A DNA stretch of 30,551 nt from a virus: IMG/VR virus record IMGVR_UViG_3300017743_002322, positions 1 to 30,551 of that record; one strand, 5' to 3'. Shown here piece after piece: positions 49 to 30,487 of this stretch. The notes beneath the pieces are model-generated. The model did no database searches. It was not told where the DNA came from and saw only the letters and a list, made by a program, of their open reading frames with translations. The position numbers and the translations under genes were made by a program. Numbering within the stretch: the first letter of the stretch is position 1; each line of letters begins with the position of its first letter.

Positions 49-567
49 TTAGGCTCCCCTAAGAAAATCTAATACTGTTTCAGGTGATGTTTCTCCATAA
101 GGGTCAGTTTCACAATCATCAGATTTACCAGGTTCGACAAACATCTTTTCGACCACGCCATCATTTACAATCATAGCATATCTCCAAGACCTTGCACCAA
201 AACCTAGGTTATCTTTCTTTACAATCATATCCATTCCAGCAGTAAATTCGCATGAACCATCTGGTATAAATTCAACATTTTTAACGCGTTGGTCTTGTAA
301 CCAAGCATTCATAACGAAAGAATCATTACATGATATACAATAAATATTATCAATTCCTTCTGCTTTAAAATCCTCAAACCTTGCTTCATAGCCAGGTACT
401 TGGAAGTTAGAACATGTTGGAGTAAACGCACCAGGTAAGCTGAATACAACTACCCTTTTACCACCAAAATAATCAGCAGTCGTTGGATGTTGCCATTCAA
501 AATCACCAGTATCTATATTTCGAGAGCGAGTTTTAAATGTTACGTCGGGTATTCTTTTAGTTTCCAT
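49..567 (-). CDS. peroxiredoxin (Prx5/AhpC-TSA type)
   Basis: A 172-residue thioredoxin-fold peroxidase that would reduce H2O2 and alkyl hydroperoxides in the cytoplasm of the infected cell. The signature PGAFTPTCS lies at about residues 45-53, with the peroxidatic cysteine at 52; two further cysteines (about 77 and 80) could act in resolution. The later FGARSWRYAMIVNDG segment is typical of the Prx5 group, and the length is normal for it. It follows hsp20 by about 50 bp on the same strand, with a perfect 7-bp hairpin between them. It probably belongs to the same late-promoted stress-protection unit. Family assignment is firm; its electron donor is unknown, though the phage carries its own glutaredoxin at 12.4 kb. 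Confidence 0.93.
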   Translation of the reverse strand: METKRIPDVTFKTRSRNIDTGDFEWQHPTTADYFGGKRVVVFSLPGAFTPTCSNFQVPGYEARFEDFKAEGIDNIYCISCNDSFVMNAWLQDQRVKNVEFIPDGSCEFTAGMDMIVKKDNLGFGARSWRYAMIVNDGVVEKMFVEPGKSDDCETDPYGETSPETVLDFLRGA

Positions 568-9730: not shown

Positions 9731-10183
9731 TCAAAGTAATTTGCTGGCTTCAATGATTTTCCAATCAATCCCAGCTTCTTTAAACATGTCAGATGTTTTA
9801 GCAAAGGAGCTTTTCCAATTATCTGGTACATCTTCCGTTGCCATAACAGCTCTTAAACAACCAACTTGAATGATACCTTTTGCACATTCGTGGCAGATAG
9901 GTAATCCCCAAACATATGCAGTTGCACCATTAAGAGATTGACCGTGAGCTGTAGCATTGTATATGCCATTCATTTCTGCATGAGATACTAACTCATACTT
10001 AAGCTCTCTGTTATTGTATCGCTCTTCTGTGTCGTCGATACCTCGTGGAAAGCCATTATAACCTGTAGATACGATTCTACGATTAACAACATAGACAGCA
10101 CCTATTTGTTTAGATGGGTCTTTGCTCCAAGTTGAAACTTCTTTTGCTAATCTTAGAAATCTAATATCCCATTTATCAGCCAT
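9731..10183 (-). CDS. cd: dCMP deaminase
   Basis: Deaminates dCMP to dUMP, supplying ThyX and balancing the pool used by dCMP hydroxymethylase. The 150-residue protein has the zinc motifs HAEMNGIYNA (about 68-77, catalytic Glu) and PICHECAKGIIQVG (P...C..C, about 93-106). The N-terminal SKDPSKQIGAVYVV and GYNGFPRGID blocks are standard. It is shorter than T4 Cd (193 aa). It starts inside the last 8 bp of gp42 (ATGGCTGA), giving a coupled hydroxymethylase-deaminase pair. Confidence 0.95.
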   Translation of the reverse strand: MADKWDIRFLRLAKEVSTWSKDPSKQIGAVYVVNRRIVSTGYNGFPRGIDDTEERYNNRELKYELVSHAEMNGIYNATAHGQSLNGATAYVWGLPICHECAKGIIQVGCLRAVMATEDVPDNWKSSFAKTSDMFKEAGIDWKIIEASKLL

Positions 10184-10838
10184 TCATTAATTCCTCAATG
10201 AAATTAAAGTGTCTTTCGTAAACATGAAAGTTGGATGCTGTCCAAAAGATATTGCCGACTTGAACATTTAAGTCATTCGCCAATTCTTGTTGAACATGTT
10301 TTGCCCATGCAACATCGTTATTGTAACCAAAGACTGCATCGTTAGAACGCATCAAGTAATGAGATTCAAGTTGACCATCGCGAATATAAAAAGTATTTGC
10401 ATATGTACACATAAAATCTGACATACCATCACGATTGTAATCCAAATGCATTGAAGGCCTATTGTATAACATAGTGGCTCTACGGGAATTTGGATTGCTC
10501 TTCAGTTCACGCAATACATGTTTATATTGGTTACCATTATCTTCAGAATAAATGCACCAGCCGTAATTAGAATTAATCTGGCCCTCTGTCGATGCAATGT
10601 CTTTCCATATCTGAGGAGTTTCTCCTGGGATATCGTTTACATTAAGGGATTGAGATTTGTACCACTCTAATTCACGCTCGATATAAGCGTAAGCAGGTTT
10701 ACGAATAACATAATCTTGGTCAGCAACAAATGTTGCACCAATGATTTCAATAGTTTTAGCACCTGTTCTGTCGATTACAAAATCTTCGTCAAGGTACTTG
10801 TCAATGATTAGTTGTCTTATGTTACCAACTGTCAACAT
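10176..10838 (-). CDS. 42: dCMP hydroxymethylase (T4 gp42-like)
   Basis: Converts dCMP to 5-hydroxymethyl-dCMP using methylene-tetrahydrofolate. The 220-residue protein matches T4 gp42 in blocks: TGAKTIEIIGATFVAD, ELEWYKSQSLNVNDIPGETP, INSNYGW, YNRPSMHLDYNRDGMSDFMC (nucleophilic Cys near 143), and LMRSNDAVFGYNNDVAW. The Asp in YNNDVAW replaces the thymidylate-synthase Asn that selects dUMP; the same change is seen in T4 gp42 and marks dCMP specificity. It overlaps dCMP deaminase by 8 bp and is preceded at 1-bp overlap by the DsbA-like gene. This is the strongest sign that the virion DNA contains modified cytosine. Confidence 0.95.
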   Translation of the reverse strand: MLTVGNIRQLIIDKYLDEDFVIDRTGAKTIEIIGATFVADQDYVIRKPAYAYIERELEWYKSQSLNVNDIPGETPQIWKDIASTEGQINSNYGWCIYSEDNGNQYKHVLRELKSNPNSRRATMLYNRPSMHLDYNRDGMSDFMCTYANTFYIRDGQLESHYLMRSNDAVFGYNNDVAWAKHVQQELANDLNVQVGNIFWTASNFHVYERHFNFIEELMNG

Positions 10839-11724: not shown

Positions 11725-12135
11725 TTATTCTCCTTTAATGTCTGAAAATTTTCCATGGTTACCTTCATGTGAGGGTGGATACCATGTGTCTGGTTTAATT
11801 AAGTCGGGTACTCCAAGTGGATTTGGTCTAGATGGTTTTTCACCGACTTCTTTGTTCATATTTGCTTTGAGTACTTCGTCCCAAGCTTTATAAGGGTCAA
11901 CTCCAAATGCATCAAGCGTACCGATAGCTACAACACATAGGTCAATTAATCCATCTACAATTTCTTCTGCATCATATTCAGATACAGCTTTACGAGTTTC
12001 TTCTAACTCTTCATTAAGAAAGTCAACACGAAACTCAAGAAACTTTTGTAGTTTCTCTGGATTATTTTCTACCCATTGTCTTGTAAGATATTTACCTTGC
12101 ATTACATGGATATCTTCTACCCAATTTTTACTCAT
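11725..12135 (-). CDS. MazG-like nucleotide pyrophosphohydrolase
   Basis: All-helical NTP pyrophosphatase type. The ELEETRKAVSEYDAEEIVDGLIDLCVVAIG segment carries the ExxE...ExxD metal-binding pattern of MazG / phosphoribosyl-ATP pyrophosphohydrolase folds. A second helix (AWDEVLKANMNKEVG) and a C-terminal WYPP segment follow. I choose the ATG at 12135 (136 aa) because AAGGA lies 7 nt upstream and it overlaps the cytochrome c stop by 8 bp; an ATG at 12183 would add 16 residues overlapping that gene. Phage MazG-like enzymes are proposed to clean up non-canonical NTPs or alter (p)ppGpp; the substrate is not evident here. Confidence 0.82.
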   Translation of the reverse strand: MSKNWVEDIHVMQGKYLTRQWVENNPEKLQKFLEFRVDFLNEELEETRKAVSEYDAEEIVDGLIDLCVVAIGTLDAFGVDPYKAWDEVLKANMNKEVGEKPSRPNPLGVPDLIKPDTWYPPSHEGNHGKFSDIKGE

Positions 12136-12451
12136 TTGGAAATCCTTGCTGAATGTATACGCCGATGGTACCAATTTGTCCATCAGTCAAACCTTTAGCT
12201 GTTCCCCACATCATTGGAGATTGTGGTCCAACTGTTTCACCAGCTTTATATTGTAAAAGCTTACTGATAATGTCATCAGCACTTTGTCCTGCAAGTTTTG
12301 GACCGATGCCACCTTGACCTTGTTGGCCATGACATGCTGCACAGGTTTTCCATACTTGTCTGATTTCCTTATAACTATCAAGCTTTTCTTCTGCTTGTGC
12401 TGTAAGACCGATAGCAAATAATGTTGCTGCTGTTAAAATTTGTATTTTCAT
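12128..12451 (-). CDS. c-type cytochrome (class I, exported)
   Basis: A 107-residue protein with a clear signal peptide (positive start, hydrophobic 4-17, cleavage probably after A20 in TAQA-EE). The mature part has one heme-attachment motif CAACH (37-41, His proximal ligand) and a downstream MMWGTAKGLTD, with Met80 or Met81 as the likely distal ligand. GGIGPKLAGQ between them is typical of small class I cytochromes c (c553/c5-like). It would be matured in the periplasm by host Ccm machinery and carry electrons between membrane complexes. Its start overlaps the glutaredoxin stop by 4 bp and its end overlaps the MazG-like start by 8 bp, so it is an integral phage gene. Which host complex it serves is unknown. 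Confidence 0.92.
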   Translation of the reverse strand: MKIQILTAATLFAIGLTAQAEEKLDSYKEIRQVWKTCAACHGQQGQGGIGPKLAGQSADDIISKLLQYKAGETVGPQSPMMWGTAKGLTDGQIGTIGVYIQQGFPNE

Positions 12452-12675
12452 GAGTTTAGCTTTAGCCTCTTTTCTAATTCAGTATATCCACCAATGTTTT
12501 CGCCTTCAATTTGAATTTGTGGGAAGGTTCTTGCACTAGGGAAAGTTTCAAAAAATTCTTCAGATGTATAATCTTTACCCATACTCAAATATTGGTATGG
12601 TACTGATAATTGTTTACATAGTGATTCAGCCATTACGCAATAACCACAAGAAGGTTTACCATATATTTTTACCAT
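12448..12675 (-). CDS. grx: glutaredoxin
   Basis: A 75-residue thiol-disulfide oxidoreductase. The active site is CGYC (10-13) rather than the common CPYC. The cis-proline TFPQI loop lies at about 50-54 and the glutathione-binding GGYTEL at 62-67. Size and order are standard. It may reduce ribonucleotide reductase, the peroxiredoxin at 0.05 kb or other host proteins. It is the second gene of a unit with a 95-aa unknown upstream and cytochrome c, MazG-like and a 73-aa unknown downstream; spacing to the first is 8 bp and it overlaps cytochrome c by 4 bp. Confidence 0.93.
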   Translation of the reverse strand: MVKIYGKPSCGYCVMAESLCKQLSVPYQYLSMGKDYTSEEFFETFPSARTFPQIQIEGENIGGYTELEKRLKLNS

Positions 12676-12683
12676 GTTTTCTC

Positions 12684-12971
12684 CTATACTAATTTAAGTC
12701 CGTCGTTACCTGGCATCATAATACCTGTGGTAGCTTCAATAACTTGTCGTTTTAACTCATCGGCAGGTTCTAATAAAAACATAACGTGTTGTTCACCAAT
12801 TGTTACTGGTCCACGTTTTGCGTAAGGTACAAATGGAACCATTCCAATTTTACCTTCTCCTGCAGGAACTAACAGAATTGCGTCTGTTAATGTGTAGAAG
12901 CCTTTATCATATACGACTTCTGCTACAACCTCTTCACCGGTTGATAGTCTTACTATTTGTACATCTTTCAT
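12684..12971 (-). CDS. conserved small beta-rich protein, unknown (possibly Sm-like)
   Basis: A 95-residue protein starting at the ATG at 12971, which has GGAG 6 nt upstream; an ATG at 12983 lacks a ribosome site. The N-terminal half (VQIVRLSTGEEVVAEVVYD... YTLTDAILLVP) reads as alternating strands with a central G-E, a pattern like the Sm/LSm fold. The middle MVPFVPYAKRG and EQHVMFLLEP continue as beta strands, and the tail is flexible. The Sm-like idea is inference; no RNA-binding residue set is certain. It is first in the redox operon, directly after the promoter. Confidence 0.75.
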   Translation of the reverse strand: MKDVQIVRLSTGEEVVAEVVYDKGFYTLTDAILLVPAGEGKIGMVPFVPYAKRGPVTIGEQHVMFLLEPADELKRQVIEATTGIMMPGNDGLKLV

Positions 12972-12994
12972 AATGTTCTCCATAATTGTGTCAT

Positions 12995-13023
12995 ATTATA
13001 ACACGTTTGTTTGTATTTGTCAA
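12995..13023 (-). promoter_or_regulatory. early promoter for the glutaredoxin/cytochrome c operon
   Basis: TTGACA (13018-13023), a 17-bp spacer and TATAAT (12995-13000) preceded by TGT. The -35 box overlaps the end of gp43. Confidence 0.9.
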
Positions 13024-15566
13024 CTAAAAAATAAATCAAGGTTATCAGTCTTTTCAGAAGTCCAGCCAAGAGCTTCAATGATATGCTCTATGGGACTAAG
13101 GAATACCTTGTTGAATTGTGTTTCGTAATCTATATATTGCTCGAGTCCAAGTTCAGTTGGTAGAACATTTGGAAATGATATTACATTTTCACGAAGTGGG
13201 TTTGGTACTTTGAGATAGACGAACTTAATCTTATCGCCAGACTGCACGGACTCGTATCGTTTACTGAGACCTTTCTCTTTAAGATAATGGTTAAATAATA
13301 TGCAACCACGAACATGTATTGGGCAACCTTTCTTGTATCCACCCTTGGTCATATACTTCTCGATGTTATCAGTACCTGAGTTACGAGCAACAACCTGTGC
13401 AGGTAGTTTAAAGAATTCCTGTTTAAAGTCTGCAATAAATTTTTGTGTTTGTTCTTCGCCTTCGTTTAGAATCACGCTGAAAATTTCACGCATCTTGTCA
13501 CGACATATCTCTGGAGTAGATGAACGAACACTTTCAAGTCCTGTTACACTGATTTTTGGTTTTTCGTAATGTACGCCTTCTGAGTTGAGAGTATTAAGAA
13601 TGTATCTCTTTTTAGCAATGAAGATTGCACGGTCATTAATTTTCTCACGCTTCATTACCATCGCATTACGATAGGCACCCATATCAGATGCAAGCGTTTC
13701 GTAACCTTCTTCGATAACCTCTTCGATTTTAGTTTGGCATACTTTATCAAGGAACTCTTCTCCAGTCTTGCGATCAATGTCAGTCGTACCATAGACCTTT
13801 TCAATCAAGTCTGCAAAGTTAACATAGACCGAGTCAGTGTCGATATAGATGACATAGTCTTTGTCTTTTGTTTTAAGTACTTTGTTAAGATAATTGTTTA
13901 CAGATTTTTCTGCATATCGAATAGAGAGTTGACCTGATGTCGTAATAGCTTCAGCCATATCATTAATATAGTATAAGAAGTATATGTTTGCTGTAGCACC
14001 ATAAAGTGAGTTCATAGAAATCTTTATGGACATCTGAGAATTATGTAATTGGTTAGCTTCTGTTTTTAACTTTTTCTTTTCAGTTGGGTCAGTTTCAACT
14101 TCAAGTTGTTGTTCAACTGCAAGCATCTGTCGTTTGATTTGAGCACGATTATTATAGTACTCATCAATAATCTCTGGAATGATGCCCATCTTTTTATTAC
14201 TGAAACATGCACCATTTGCTGCAACTGAGAAATCTTTGTTTGTATTTTTAAACTCACCTTTTAGTATCATGTCTTGAGTTGTATACTCACGATCGTCATG
14301 CGAATAAGTTTCAGGTGACATATTGTATTGTAACATCAAGTGAGGATATAGTGAGTTCAAGTCAAATGATACTACCCAAGGATACATTGCAGGTTTAGGG
14401 TCTTTAACATAACCACCTACAAGACCAGAACCTCGTTGACCTGGTGATTCTTTAATTGGTGGAACAATTTTATCTTTCATAAGTTTACGATAGATAATAG
14501 ATTCCCAGATACCAACAGTACCAAATGCATCGTTATAGTTAACTCCACCACCATAAGCAACAGTCATCACAAGAGCAAGTAGAGATGTTTCCTCTTCGAG
14601 CCTTTCGATGAGCTGTGTATCTTTTAAGTTATAGTCGAGATAGAGCTGTGGGTTCTGTTCGTAAAGAGCAGTCAAGTTACCATATTCAGAATAGTCAAGT
14701 TTCTTTTCACCGAGTACAACATTTGCAATATGGTCAAGTCTGTAAGATTCTTGTGGACCATATTTGTAACCAAACTTTTTGAAAGCATCCATATAGTCAA
14801 TAACAGCAACACCTGAGATATTGTAAGATGATTGTACCTTACCAAATACCTCTCGCGAATATTTACGAATATTATTCCAAGGGCTAAGTCGTTTTGATAA
14901 CTCTTCACCACATAGATTTGCAATACGAGTTACGATATACTGAATGTCAAAGTATTGGACGTTCCAACCTGTTACAACATCTGGATAATCAGATACCCAT
15001 ATCTCAACAAAGCGTCTCAGTAATTGTACCTCTGAGTCAAACTTGATAAACATAATATTATCGGGGTCAATACCAGTGATAGTTTGAGTCTTGTCAAAGT
15101 CTTTACGACCAAGCAAATAATAGATATTTGATTTTGAAGATTTGTATGCAATAGATGTGATTTCTTTGTCAGCATATTCTGTGTTTGCATACCCGTCACT
15201 GATATCGACCTCGATGTCGAAGCTGACGATGTTGACTTGGTTAATGTCATAACGTACATCGTCGGGATAATTTTCTTGGATAAATTGAGCAGTGTAGTTT
15301 GTGTTACCAAAGATTTTCATACCGTGAACACCTTTGTATTCTTCAGTAAATTCTTTGGATTCACGCATCGAGCCAAACAGTTGTGGACTCAATGGCAAAT
15401 TACCTTTAAGGGAAGTATATCCCTCGTCACCAGATTTTGGTGTGTGTAAGTAGAGAGTTGGCTTATAAGGAACGCGATATGAAAAACGTTTACCGTTTTC
15501 GTAACCACGATGCAAGATATTATTGCCGTAACGCTCGACTGAAGTGTAGAATGAAGTCATACTCAT
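13020..15566 (-). CDS. 43: family B DNA polymerase gp43
   Basis: Replicative polymerase with proofreading, 848 residues (T4 gp43 is 898). The exonuclease motifs are VSFDIEVD (exo I, near 110), WNVQYFDIQYI (exo II, near 200) and YNLKDTQLI (exo III). The polymerase motifs are FDLNSLYPHLMLQYN (motif A), the KISMNSLYGA helix (motif B) and YIDTDSVYV (motif C, catalytic DTD), followed by a KKRYI block. The C-terminus NLDLFFS looks like a clamp-binding peptide for gp45. It is transcribed alone from its own promoter. No intein or intron is present. Confidence 0.98.
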   Translation of the reverse strand: MSMTSFYTSVERYGNNILHRGYENGKRFSYRVPYKPTLYLHTPKSGDEGYTSLKGNLPLSPQLFGSMRESKEFTEEYKGVHGMKIFGNTNYTAQFIQENYPDDVRYDINQVNIVSFDIEVDISDGYANTEYADKEITSIAYKSSKSNIYYLLGRKDFDKTQTITGIDPDNIMFIKFDSEVQLLRRFVEIWVSDYPDVVTGWNVQYFDIQYIVTRIANLCGEELSKRLSPWNNIRKYSREVFGKVQSSYNISGVAVIDYMDAFKKFGYKYGPQESYRLDHIANVVLGEKKLDYSEYGNLTALYEQNPQLYLDYNLKDTQLIERLEEETSLLALVMTVAYGGGVNYNDAFGTVGIWESIIYRKLMKDKIVPPIKESPGQRGSGLVGGYVKDPKPAMYPWVVSFDLNSLYPHLMLQYNMSPETYSHDDREYTTQDMILKGEFKNTNKDFSVAANGACFSNKKMGIIPEIIDEYYNNRAQIKRQMLAVEQQLEVETDPTEKKKLKTEANQLHNSQMSIKISMNSLYGATANIYFLYYINDMAEAITTSGQLSIRYAEKSVNNYLNKVLKTKDKDYVIYIDTDSVYVNFADLIEKVYGTTDIDRKTGEEFLDKVCQTKIEEVIEEGYETLASDMGAYRNAMVMKREKINDRAIFIAKKRYILNTLNSEGVHYEKPKISVTGLESVRSSTPEICRDKMREIFSVILNEGEEQTQKFIADFKQEFFKLPAQVVARNSGTDNIEKYMTKGGYKKGCPIHVRGCILFNHYLKEKGLSKRYESVQSGDKIKFVYLKVPNPLRENVISFPNVLPTELGLEQYIDYETQFNKVFLSPIEHIIEALGWTSEKTDNLDLFFS

Positions 15567-25316: not shown

Positions 25317-26666
25317 TTATATAAGTTTTAAGTCACTCAAGAATTGCTTTTTAGGTGTCGCCTTATTCCAAAAGTCTAAGTCCTTCTCAGCTTGCTTGAT
25401 TTGTTTTTCTAAACTCAGAATCTCTTCTGATGTTAAGTTAGAAAATGGTATTGCTAATAGTCGGTCGAGCAAGACACTTGCTTCTGGTATGTGTGATATA
25501 ATATCATCGCCTATTTGCTTTTTGTTCTTATTTTTAAATGTGATTTTATCATCAAGTACAAGTTGGATAAATTCCATTTTAATTTGTAGCCATATTTTTG
25601 CTGCTTCAAATGTTGCAAGGTTCTTGTCAATACGCTTCTGCAATACACCGAAACGGTAATCACAAAAGTCTTTAACAAGAATACTCACATCATCGTACTC
25701 TCGTAACTTACCATCTTGGTCAATCACAGTACAGTTTTGGCTAAGTACTTTTGATAATTTAAATTTGTTAATAACTTTAGCATCATTCCATTTTGCTGAT
25801 GATGCAAGTTTGAGTTTAACTGTAAACTTGAAGCCACTCTTATCACAAAGGTCTTCGTAAGATACTATATCTCCGTCATCTTCAAGTTTATCTAATACCT
25901 TTACATACCCTTCCCTGTCTAGTCCATAAGGTACTTCAGTGATTGTAAGTTGTGTCTTAGATGTCTTCTCATAAACCCCAGTTACGGTATATCGCTTAGG
26001 CTCGAGTGGGTCTTGTTTAACTGTACCACTGAACTCTGGGAATTTTACCTTAATAGTATCTGTAGCAATTTTCTTTGTTCGTAAGTATTCTTCACAAGCT
26101 GCAGCCAAACTATCTGGGCAGTGTGGTAGAATATTTGTAGCGAATCCTGTTGCAATACCTTTAGTGCCATTTGCTAATACTAATGGAATCACTGGTAAGT
26201 AATGTGCAGGTGGCTCATGCTCTGGGTCTTCATGTACTGGACTCAAATCTACATCTTTAACATACTTAGTAAAGTTGTCATGTAGTCGAGTATAGACATA
26301 ACGAGGGGCACCGGCGTCTTGGATTAGTCTTGTACCAAAGGACCCTCGGCCTTCAACTAAACAAATGTTGTTATTCCAAGTCGCGGCCATGAGCTGACCA
26401 GAACCGGCTGCGCTCCCCTCGCCATGATTGTAGCCATAATCTGATATGATACCAGATACGGCGGAAACTTTTTTGAAATCTCTTTTTGTGTTTTGAATAC
26501 TGGAGTATAGGTAAAACCTTTGCACGGGTTTTAGTCCGTCAATCATATTTGGTATCGCACGATTTTCAACGGTGTACATTGCAAATGATTTCCACTCTCT
26601 TGCGGCAACATTTGACAATGGGTAGTATTGATTGTCGTCATTAATATAGTTTGTCAAATCACTCAT
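25317..26666 (-). CDS. 52: DNA topoisomerase II medium subunit gp52
   Basis: DNA breakage-reunion subunit (GyrA/ParC-like) of the T4 topoisomerase, 449 residues (T4 gp52 is 442). Matching blocks are FAMYTVENRAIPNMIDGLKPVQRFYLY, YGYNHGEGSA, LMAATWNNNICLVEGRGSFGTR, and APRYVYTRLHDNF, where the catalytic tyrosine is expected. IIPLVLANGTKGIATGFAT and a C-terminal coiled region follow. It overlaps the end of the large-subunit reading frame by 4 bp. It is complete, so the topoisomerase is likely needed even though the large-subunit frame carries an amber codon. Confidence 0.97.
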   Translation of the reverse strand: MSDLTNYINDDNQYYPLSNVAAREWKSFAMYTVENRAIPNMIDGLKPVQRFYLYSSIQNTKRDFKKVSAVSGIISDYGYNHGEGSAAGSGQLMAATWNNNICLVEGRGSFGTRLIQDAGAPRYVYTRLHDNFTKYVKDVDLSPVHEDPEHEPPAHYLPVIPLVLANGTKGIATGFATNILPHCPDSLAAACEEYLRTKKIATDTIKVKFPEFSGTVKQDPLEPKRYTVTGVYEKTSKTQLTITEVPYGLDREGYVKVLDKLEDDGDIVSYEDLCDKSGFKFTVKLKLASSAKWNDAKVINKFKLSKVLSQNCTVIDQDGKLREYDDVSILVKDFCDYRFGVLQKRIDKNLATFEAAKIWLQIKMEFIQLVLDDKITFKNKNKKQIGDDIISHIPEASVLLDRLLAIPFSNLTSEEILSLEKQIKQAEKDLDFWNKATPKKQFLSDLKLI

Positions 26667-27538
26667 GCGAACATAAACTCCTTTCGTAAATTACTATCCT
26701 TACCAAACATCATTTGGAAAAGACCGGCATCGTCTACTGAAACAGTATCGTACCGTGGTTGGTTAATTATAACATCATATTCCTCTTCTGTCAACGATCC
26801 GAGTCCTTTAATGTAACGATGTTTCCAATTTGAATTCTTTTGCTTGAACTCAGATGCTTCTTCGTAAGTATAGAACCAATTAACTTTATCCTTAAATGTG
26901 GATATCATAATTGGAGTACGAGTAATTTTAACTCTGTGCTCAAGAAGTAGTCGTGGCCAGAACTTATAAAAGAATGCAATTAACAATGGACTGATGTGAC
27001 CAATACCATCGTGGTCGGCATCTGTTAAGGTAGCAATATGTTTATATGTCATATTGTCAACACTGTCTTCGTCGTTAATGTCAAGTCCTAGTACAGCTAC
27101 CAATTCAGATAGTTCTTTGTTTTTCAGAACATCTGCAGGTTTCATATCCCAAGTGTTCATAATAACACCACGCAATGGAAATGCTCCAACCTTGTTTGGG
27201 TCACGAACTTTTAATAAGAATCCCATAGCTGAATCACCCTCTACAATTTTAAGAGTAGCATCATCTTTGTTAGCAGCAATATGTTTTGCAACTTTGACTT
27301 TACGTAATTTCTTTTGAGCCATTGTTGCAGCACGTTTGTCTGCAGCTAACTTCTTAGCAAGTTGAGCTTCAATGATTGGGTCAATAATAACTGGTGTATT
27401 GAGTATCTTACGAGCAAGGAAATTATAATCCTTAATATCACATGTTTCTAAGTGAGCTCTTACCTCTGCGAGAGAGTTAGTTAATCTCTCTTTTGTTTGT
27501 GAGTCAAATTTTGGATTCACAAAGTTTCTTGCGAACAT
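26663..27538 (-). CDS. 39: topoisomerase II large subunit, C-terminal part (Toprim)
   Basis: A 291-residue ORF in the same frame as the N-terminal part, separated from it by a single TAG and 10 codons. It begins with FARNFVNPKFDSQTKERL, containing the QTK loop that contacts ATP in type II ATPases, so the transducer domain itself is cut. The Toprim domain follows with IVEGDSAMGF and LTDADHDGIGH (catalytic Glu and DxD), and then a region that would bind gp52. The ATG at 27538 has AAAGGTGG but about 13 nt away, a poor distance. It could be made by reinitiation, by readthrough, or not at all if the TAG is an error. Confidence 0.88.
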   Translation of the reverse strand: MFARNFVNPKFDSQTKERLTNSLAEVRAHLETCDIKDYNFLARKILNTPVIIDPIIEAQLAKKLAADKRAATMAQKKLRKVKVAKHIAANKDDATLKIVEGDSAMGFLLKVRDPNKVGAFPLRGVIMNTWDMKPADVLKNKELSELVAVLGLDINDEDSVDNMTYKHIATLTDADHDGIGHISPLLIAFFYKFWPRLLLEHRVKITRTPIMISTFKDKVNWFYTYEEASEFKQKNSNWKHRYIKGLGSLTEEEYDVIINQPRYDTVSVDDAGLFQMMFGKDSNLRKEFMFA

Positions 27539-29812: not shown

Positions 29813-30487
29813 ATGAAAGTAAAACTAATCTCTCACTCACAGGCTCCTCATGCAGCTAATGATTCAGCTCTTGATTTAATAGCCTATTGTGCTAGGGTGA
29901 GTAATCCATCTAATCAATCTAATAAGGAAACAAATGAAAAGCTCGTTAAGTACCTTATTAAACACAAGCATTGGTCACCTTTAGAAATGGTATCAGCTTG
30001 TATTGAAATTGAAACGACTCGTGATATTGCTCGTCAAATCCTACGACATCGTTCTTTCTCATTCCAAGAGTTTAGTCAACGTTATGCAGACCCTACTACT
30101 GATTTAGCATTTGAAGTACGAGATGCTCGTTTACAAGACCTTAAGAACAGACAGAATTCTATTGAGATAGACCAACTCGATGAGTCGCAAAGACGAATCA
30201 ACGAAGATTGGCGTATGAAACAATTGACTCATATTAGACAGACACAAGAACTTTACAACTGGGCAATAGACAATGGCATCGCAAAAGAACAAGCAAGAGC
30301 AGTACTTCCAGAAGGTAACACCATTTCTCGTATGTATGTTAATGGTACCCTTCGTAGTTGGATTTATTTTATTGAGCTCCGTTCTGGTAACGGTACTCAA
30401 CTTGAGCACATGGATATCGCAAAAGAAGTAGCCTCTGTGATTTCAACTATTTTTCCTATGGCTAATGACTTTGTTGAAAATAATTAA
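29813..30487 (+). CDS. thyX: flavin-dependent thymidylate synthase ThyX
   Basis: Makes dTMP from dUMP with FAD, NADPH and methylene-tetrahydrofolate. The 224-residue protein has the ThyX signature as RHRSFSFQEFSQRY (78-91; the family motif is RHRxxSxNxxSxRY, here with Gln for Asn). HKHWSPLEM (51-59) and LPEGNTISRMYVNGTLRSWIYFI, with the substrate-binding Arg, complete the active site. An AGGAAACA ribosome site precedes the ATG. It completes the route dCTP/dCMP - dUMP - dTMP with dUTPase and dCMP deaminase. Unlike most metabolic genes here it is on the plus strand. Confidence 0.97.
   Translation: MKVKLISHSQAPHAANDSALDLIAYCARVSNPSNQSNKETNEKLVKYLIKHKHWSPLEMVSACIEIETTRDIARQILRHRSFSFQEFSQRYADPTTDLAFEVRDARLQDLKNRQNSIEIDQLDESQRRINEDWRMKQLTHIRQTQELYNWAIDNGIAKEQARAVLPEGNTISRMYVNGTLRSWIYFIELRSGNGTQLEHMDIAKEVASVISTIFPMANDFVENN

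Follow-up and report, generated by a model that had tools for sequence, protein, structure and literature searches.

An uncultured marine T4-like phage, whose entire IMG/VR virus record of 30,551 nucleotides is referred to here as the window, carries the gene of a predicted exported cytochrome c among its replication genes. The gene is best interpreted, with a probability of roughly two in three, as a mobile auxiliary metabolic gene that was captured from gammaproteobacteria and encodes a periplasmic electron carrier that would sustain the respiration of the host. As judged from sequence, it combines the location in viral DNA, cellular ancestry, and selective maintenance by which auxiliary metabolic genes are recognized with a predicted metabolic effect.

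The open reading frame outlined in the preliminary description, an exported cytochrome c with a signal peptide, a CAACH heme motif, and a methionine ligand, is present on the minus strand of the window (Table 1). The signal peptide is predicted to be of the Sec type, and the axial methionine is the second residue of a Met80-Met81 pair (nucleotides 12214 to 12209). The 4-bp and 8-bp overlaps reported with the neighboring genes could both be read in the sequence: the stop codon of the glutaredoxin gene overlaps the cytochrome ATG at positions 12448 to 12451, and the cytochrome stop codon overlaps the ATG of the MazG-like gene at positions 12128 to 12135 (ATGAGTAA). Both are widely retained: among 23 distinct proteins, 19 have the 4-bp overlap and 21 the 8-bp overlap. 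The cytochrome gene is flanked by T4-like genes and lies inside the T4-like replication operon. Its GC3 is low (0.21) and matches that of the small genes adjoining it, and the open reading frame is 100% identical in four further metagenome contigs.

Table 1. Features of the cytochrome c gene and of the genes around it in the window
Feature	Position	Strand	Description and basis
Cytochrome c gene	12128..12451	−	107 amino acids, A-type: signal peptide and single class I heme domain; ORF translation, Pfam, profile, predicted fold
Signal peptide, residues 1 to 20	12392..12451	−	MKIQILTAATLFAIGLTAQA, predicted cleavage between AQA and EE; sequence reading and hydropathy
CAACH heme attachment motif, residues 37 to 41	12329..12343	−	Sequence reading, family alignment
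Axial ligand Met81, family-invariant	12209..12211	−	Family alignment
Glutaredoxin, upstream of cytochrome	12448..12675	−	PF00462, E = 1.1e-9
MazG-like pyrophosphohydrolase, downstream of cytochrome	11725..12135	−	PF01503, E = 1.2e-11
phrog_527 protein, function unknown, start of local gene run	12684..12983	−	PHROG match
T4-like family B DNA polymerase (gp43)	13020..15566	−	Pfam; ≤45% identity to any phage-collection record

The recurrent adjacency of glutaredoxin raised the possibility that it is the functional partner of the cytochrome. This was rejected: glutaredoxin is cytoplasmic and elsewhere lies near, or is fused to, ribonucleotide reductase, so that a shared nucleotide-metabolism slot is the simpler reading. 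The window also contains thymidylate synthase genes of two types, thyA and thyX (10176 to 10838 and 29813 to 30487). The thyX gene was recognized by visual inspection and from its 55% identity to a Thy1 protein of another cytochrome-encoding contig (L020). Peroxiredoxin and HSP20 genes are adjacent at one end of the window (49 to 567 and 618 to 1070).

Its profile matches and predicted fold place the window protein among the mono-heme class I cytochromes c of the c4/c552/c553 kind. It matches Pfam Cytochrom_C (PF00034) with an E value of 4.9e-7 and 31.4 bits, against a curated cut-off of 21.3, and has no match in PHROG. A family profile built from 18 diverse phage relatives and compared with the PDB retrieved solved c552, c4, and c554 structures with E values of about 1e-24 to 1e-17, the best being 3.8e-24 for c552, 7.5e-22 for 8yts, and 7.6e-20 for c4. 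The structure predicted for the protein (pLDDT of 84.7 overall and above 90 across most of the heme domain) has the all-helical fold of cytochrome c, and its top PDB matches are all cytochromes c. They include 8yts (TMt 0.80), 1c53, 1cno, and 2zzs, P. nautica c552 and Vibrio c554, and also the cytochrome c4 that forms chain K in 8smr, an entry for the bc1-cbb3 supercomplex of P. aeruginosa. The protein resembles these cellular cytochromes (8yts, 1cno, and 2zzs, and c4 in 1h1o, 6q2u, and 8smr) in fold, CxxCH motif, axial methionine, signal peptide, and size, and differs from them in being phage encoded and belonging to a separate viral clade.

The residues of the heme site are retained throughout the phage family. 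C37, C40, H41, P51 (the heme-pocket proline), and M81 are invariant among the 18 diverse members, the CxxCH motif is present in 108 of the 108 phage open reading frames gathered, and the axial methionine is kept in every sufficiently long one that was inspected. The charge of the heme domain in the phage cytochromes resembles that of their cellular relatives. Some A-type cytochromes contain an insert of 10 to 20 residues with an LQEW motif between the signal peptide and the heme domain (L038:1097-1450 and L021:3083-3403).

Relatives of the cytochrome are encoded by 98 IMG/VR contigs. Searches of 50,697 phage records, whether with A-type, B-type, or bacterial queries, detected none, and T4-like polymerases with up to 45% identity to that of the window were easily detected in the same records. 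Within the T4-like lineage of the window, the order polymerase, phrog_527, glutaredoxin, cytochrome, and MazG is conserved while the identity of the cytochrome falls from 100% to about 65%. One carrier record of this lineage has a gp23 capsid gene, and another cytochrome-carrying record has a terminase. The gene order that was to be sought in metagenomic phage contigs is therefore found in many related phages of IMG/VR, and the cytochrome itself, whose absence from all related phages had been named as grounds for abandoning the idea, is carried by many of them. Cellular contamination and misassembly are ruled out by the phage genes that flank the cytochrome in many independent contigs and by the fact that the filled site (L035 and L039) and the empty one (L173 and L345) were each assembled more than once.

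The gene is selected but facultative and dispensable. Purifying selection is evident from a median dN/dS of 0.24 (353 pairs). A phage with the cytochrome (L035) and one without it (L173) have flanks that are 98.9% identical over 1,035 bp and 99.4% identical over 5,450 bp; the cytochrome is the sole difference between them, and start-stop coupling is intact in both. Such an empty-site pair offers a natural comparison with and without the gene, and a second pair (L228 and L230, 97% identical) involves the B-type cytochrome. On the polymerase tree, the state of the slot (A, B, or none, where none means absence from the slot, since the L214 record has a copy elsewhere) changes at least 10 times. 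A survey anchored on MazG found the cytochrome in 18 cases and a clean junction of glutaredoxin and MazG in 13; another 48 showed neither arrangement, and almost all of these were devoid of glutaredoxin or cytochrome at that place. Over most of their length, the cytochrome genes of L035 and L028 are 92 to 98% identical in DNA, compared with only about 50 to 80% in the flanks, which argues for transfer of essentially a single gene. The cytochrome thus appears to pass from phage to phage as a cassette of one gene, presumably by recombination. The earlier characterization of the gene as integral and not a recent stray insertion holds with respect to function, as selection shows, and fails with respect to permanence, given near-identical phages with and without it, single-gene transfer, and repeated changes of state.

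Facultative single-gene cassettes are common for genes that serve host takeover or the exclusion of other phages, and the cytochrome could act to these ends as a decoy carrier that poisons or blocks host respiration. This is highly improbable: all heme and ligand residues are retained, and heme synthesis and oxidase genes are co-located with the cytochrome in other phages, pointing to added capacity.

Two architectures occur among the phage proteins. A-type cytochromes, including that of the window, have a signal peptide and are predicted to be soluble, and B-type cytochromes have an N-terminal anchor and a CxGxCY motif in front of the same heme domain. In the tree, 59 distinct phage domains form a single clade (96/91) with the A-type monophyletic within the B-type; this clade is nested among anchored cytochromes of gammaproteobacterial genomes, with proteins of Halieaceae and Alteromonadaceae MAGs as sisters. 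The tree rests on 82 columns, so only its broad branches are safe. The N terminus of the B-type phage proteins is recognizably that of the cellular anchored family. The B-type copies and the Halieaceae-type cytochromes have anchor, CxGxCY motif, and heme domain in common, whereas the A-type copies have a cleavable signal peptide and lack the anchor and the second cysteine pair. In the gammaproteobacterial anchored family itself (L241, L243, and L245 to L272), CxGxCY is conserved between anchor and heme domain, and the cellular members examined are solitary genes outside respiratory operons.

Strong profile matches (E ≤ 1e-22) were obtained in 28 of 392 genomes of the GTDB order to which the Halieaceae MAG belongs, and in 5 of 369 genomes, the query genome included, drawn from the whole class. 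The preliminary description had proposed a phylogeny with SAR11 and other marine cytochromes c; no link to SAR11 was seen, and the nearest cellular relatives found are gammaproteobacterial. An origin from SAR11 was rejected, as no Pelagibacterales occur among the 80 best bacterial matches listed and the strong matches cluster in the order of the Halieaceae MAG. The phage cytochromes apparently derive from a membrane-anchored one that viruses acquired from marine Gammaproteobacteria (Halieaceae and kin), and the anchor was likely lost afterward, so that the soluble form would have arisen within viruses. The host would likewise be gammaproteobacterial, to judge from the donor of the cytochrome gene alone.

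In other phages the cytochrome is accompanied by respiratory and heme genes. A second phage group has isocitrate lyase, cytochrome, and alternative oxidase in a row (L018:2685-4981 and L020:6568-8854), with isocitrate lyase upstream of the cytochrome and alternative oxidase (PF01786, E = 1e-65) starting directly after its stop codon in the former contig and overlapping it in the latter; all three genes occur together in six of the six long records of this group. A T4-like record of 169,742 bp (G1147, L395), whose polymerase is 74% identical to that of the window, has the cytochrome adjoining glycine hydroxymethyltransferase; alternative oxidase, ribonucleotide reductase, and 5-aminolevulinate synthase, the last scoring 566 bits where the cut-off is 338, all lie within about 9 kb. 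The whole cluster (L395:3101-13365) comprises thyX, NrdA, alternative oxidase, an NrdB-glutaredoxin fusion, 5-aminolevulinate synthase, a DUF454 protein, DNA ligase, glycine hydroxymethyltransferase, and cytochrome c, and its arrangement is shared by L397 to L400, although alternative oxidase was not seen in L400. Elsewhere the gene is found with a DnaB-type helicase and a family A polymerase (L024 and L034), with ribonucleotide reductase and glutaredoxin (L069), or with recombination genes and glutaredoxin (L057). Phage C48C1 (OQ984149), a complete Kyanoviridae record, has alternative oxidase and isocitrate lyase genes that are annotated as hypothetical (26255 to 26818 and 44172 to 45413); the cytochrome was not found in this phage.

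Because heme supply, electron carrier, and oxidase travel together, respiration is the natural reading, and this genomic context suggests that host respiration is either sustained or redirected. For redirection, the cytochrome, alternative oxidase, and glyoxylate-shunt or heme genes would act as a viral bypass, or as a redox safety valve, by draining a reduced quinol/cytochrome pool. Several phage groups have alternative oxidase next to the cytochrome or not far from it, which fits this view, as does the analogy with cyanophage PTOX and plastocyanin (PMC10452541). Redirection is nevertheless unlikely, as alternative oxidase was not seen in the lineage of the window. Moreover, alternative oxidase takes its electrons from quinol and not from cytochrome c, so that the two proteins would be parallel sinks. 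Neither alternative oxidase nor isocitrate lyase was seen in the window or its near relatives (fragments of up to 108 kb), which, like the dispensability of the gene, counts against sustained respiration. Since the window shows the cytochrome only and its nearer relatives show no oxidase, the claim for this lineage is a top-up of the periplasmic carrier of the host.

The sustaining of respiration would proceed as follows. The cytochrome would be translated by stop-start coupling between glutaredoxin and MazG in the replication and nucleotide operon of the phage, exported by the host Sec system, and provided with heme by the host cytochrome c maturation system. In the periplasm it would shuttle electrons from the bc1 complex of the host to a terminal oxidase of the cbb3 or aa3 type, and this supplement could maintain both respiration and the proton-motive force throughout the shutdown of host gene expression. 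The heme loading of the protein, its redox partners, the direction of electron flow, the benefit to the phage, and the identity of the host are what we infer in this scheme. A periplasmic cytochrome might instead serve defense against oxidative stress, for example, by donating electrons to a periplasmic cytochrome c peroxidase of the host, in keeping with the peroxiredoxin, HSP20, and glutaredoxin genes of the window phage and with peroxiredoxin in some other cytochrome phages. This is quite improbable, as the peroxiredoxin and HSP20 genes lie 11 kb from the cytochrome, no peroxidase was seen in the annotated neighborhoods, and glutaredoxin is cytoplasmic whereas the cytochrome is predicted to be exported.

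For cyanophages, the control that viruses exert over energy metabolism has been well described. Their plastocyanin (petE) and PTOX are host-derived genes to which a role in keeping electrons flowing in infected cells is ascribed (PMC10452541), and the cytochrome resembles them as a phage-borne gene of host origin for an electron carrier or quinol oxidase. Plastocyanin, however, is a copper protein of phages with photosynthetic hosts, whereas the present carrier is a heme protein whose donor and probable host are heterotrophic gammaproteobacteria. The comparison appears to hold as a functional analogy only; a Pfam scan returned cytochrome c families and no homology to petE or PTOX. Aquatic phages with viral 5-aminolevulinate synthase (vAlaS) carry heme-synthesis genes (PMC11480375), and related T4-like records carry alaS together with the cytochrome; that paper, where it deals with cytochromes and heme, mentions no cytochrome c from a phage. 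Viral cytochrome oxidase reads and subunits (PMC3474794) and viral glyoxylate-shunt genes, including isocitrate lyase (PMC4053976 and PMC5332604), are known, and a study of nitrogen genes in marine viruses observed no electron carriers such as cytochromes in its phages (PMC8115048). No description of a phage cytochrome c carrier was found in the open-access papers searched, and one may exist elsewhere. For phages of heterotrophs, a clear gene of an electron carrier was thus met with neither in those papers nor, as a relative of the cytochrome, in the 50,697 phage records.

More broadly, the evidence is evenly poised on whether marine phages of heterotrophic gammaproteobacteria possess a modular respiratory kit, in which cytochrome c, alternative oxidase, isocitrate lyase, and heme-precursor genes, variously combined, would be moved gene by gene between lineages and rebuild the electron-transport chain of the host as cyanophages do for photosynthesis. 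Should the protein work, one small heme protein makes the question directly testable. An infected heterotroph would then respire via a chain that is viral in part, which is relevant to how carbon is respired during infection.
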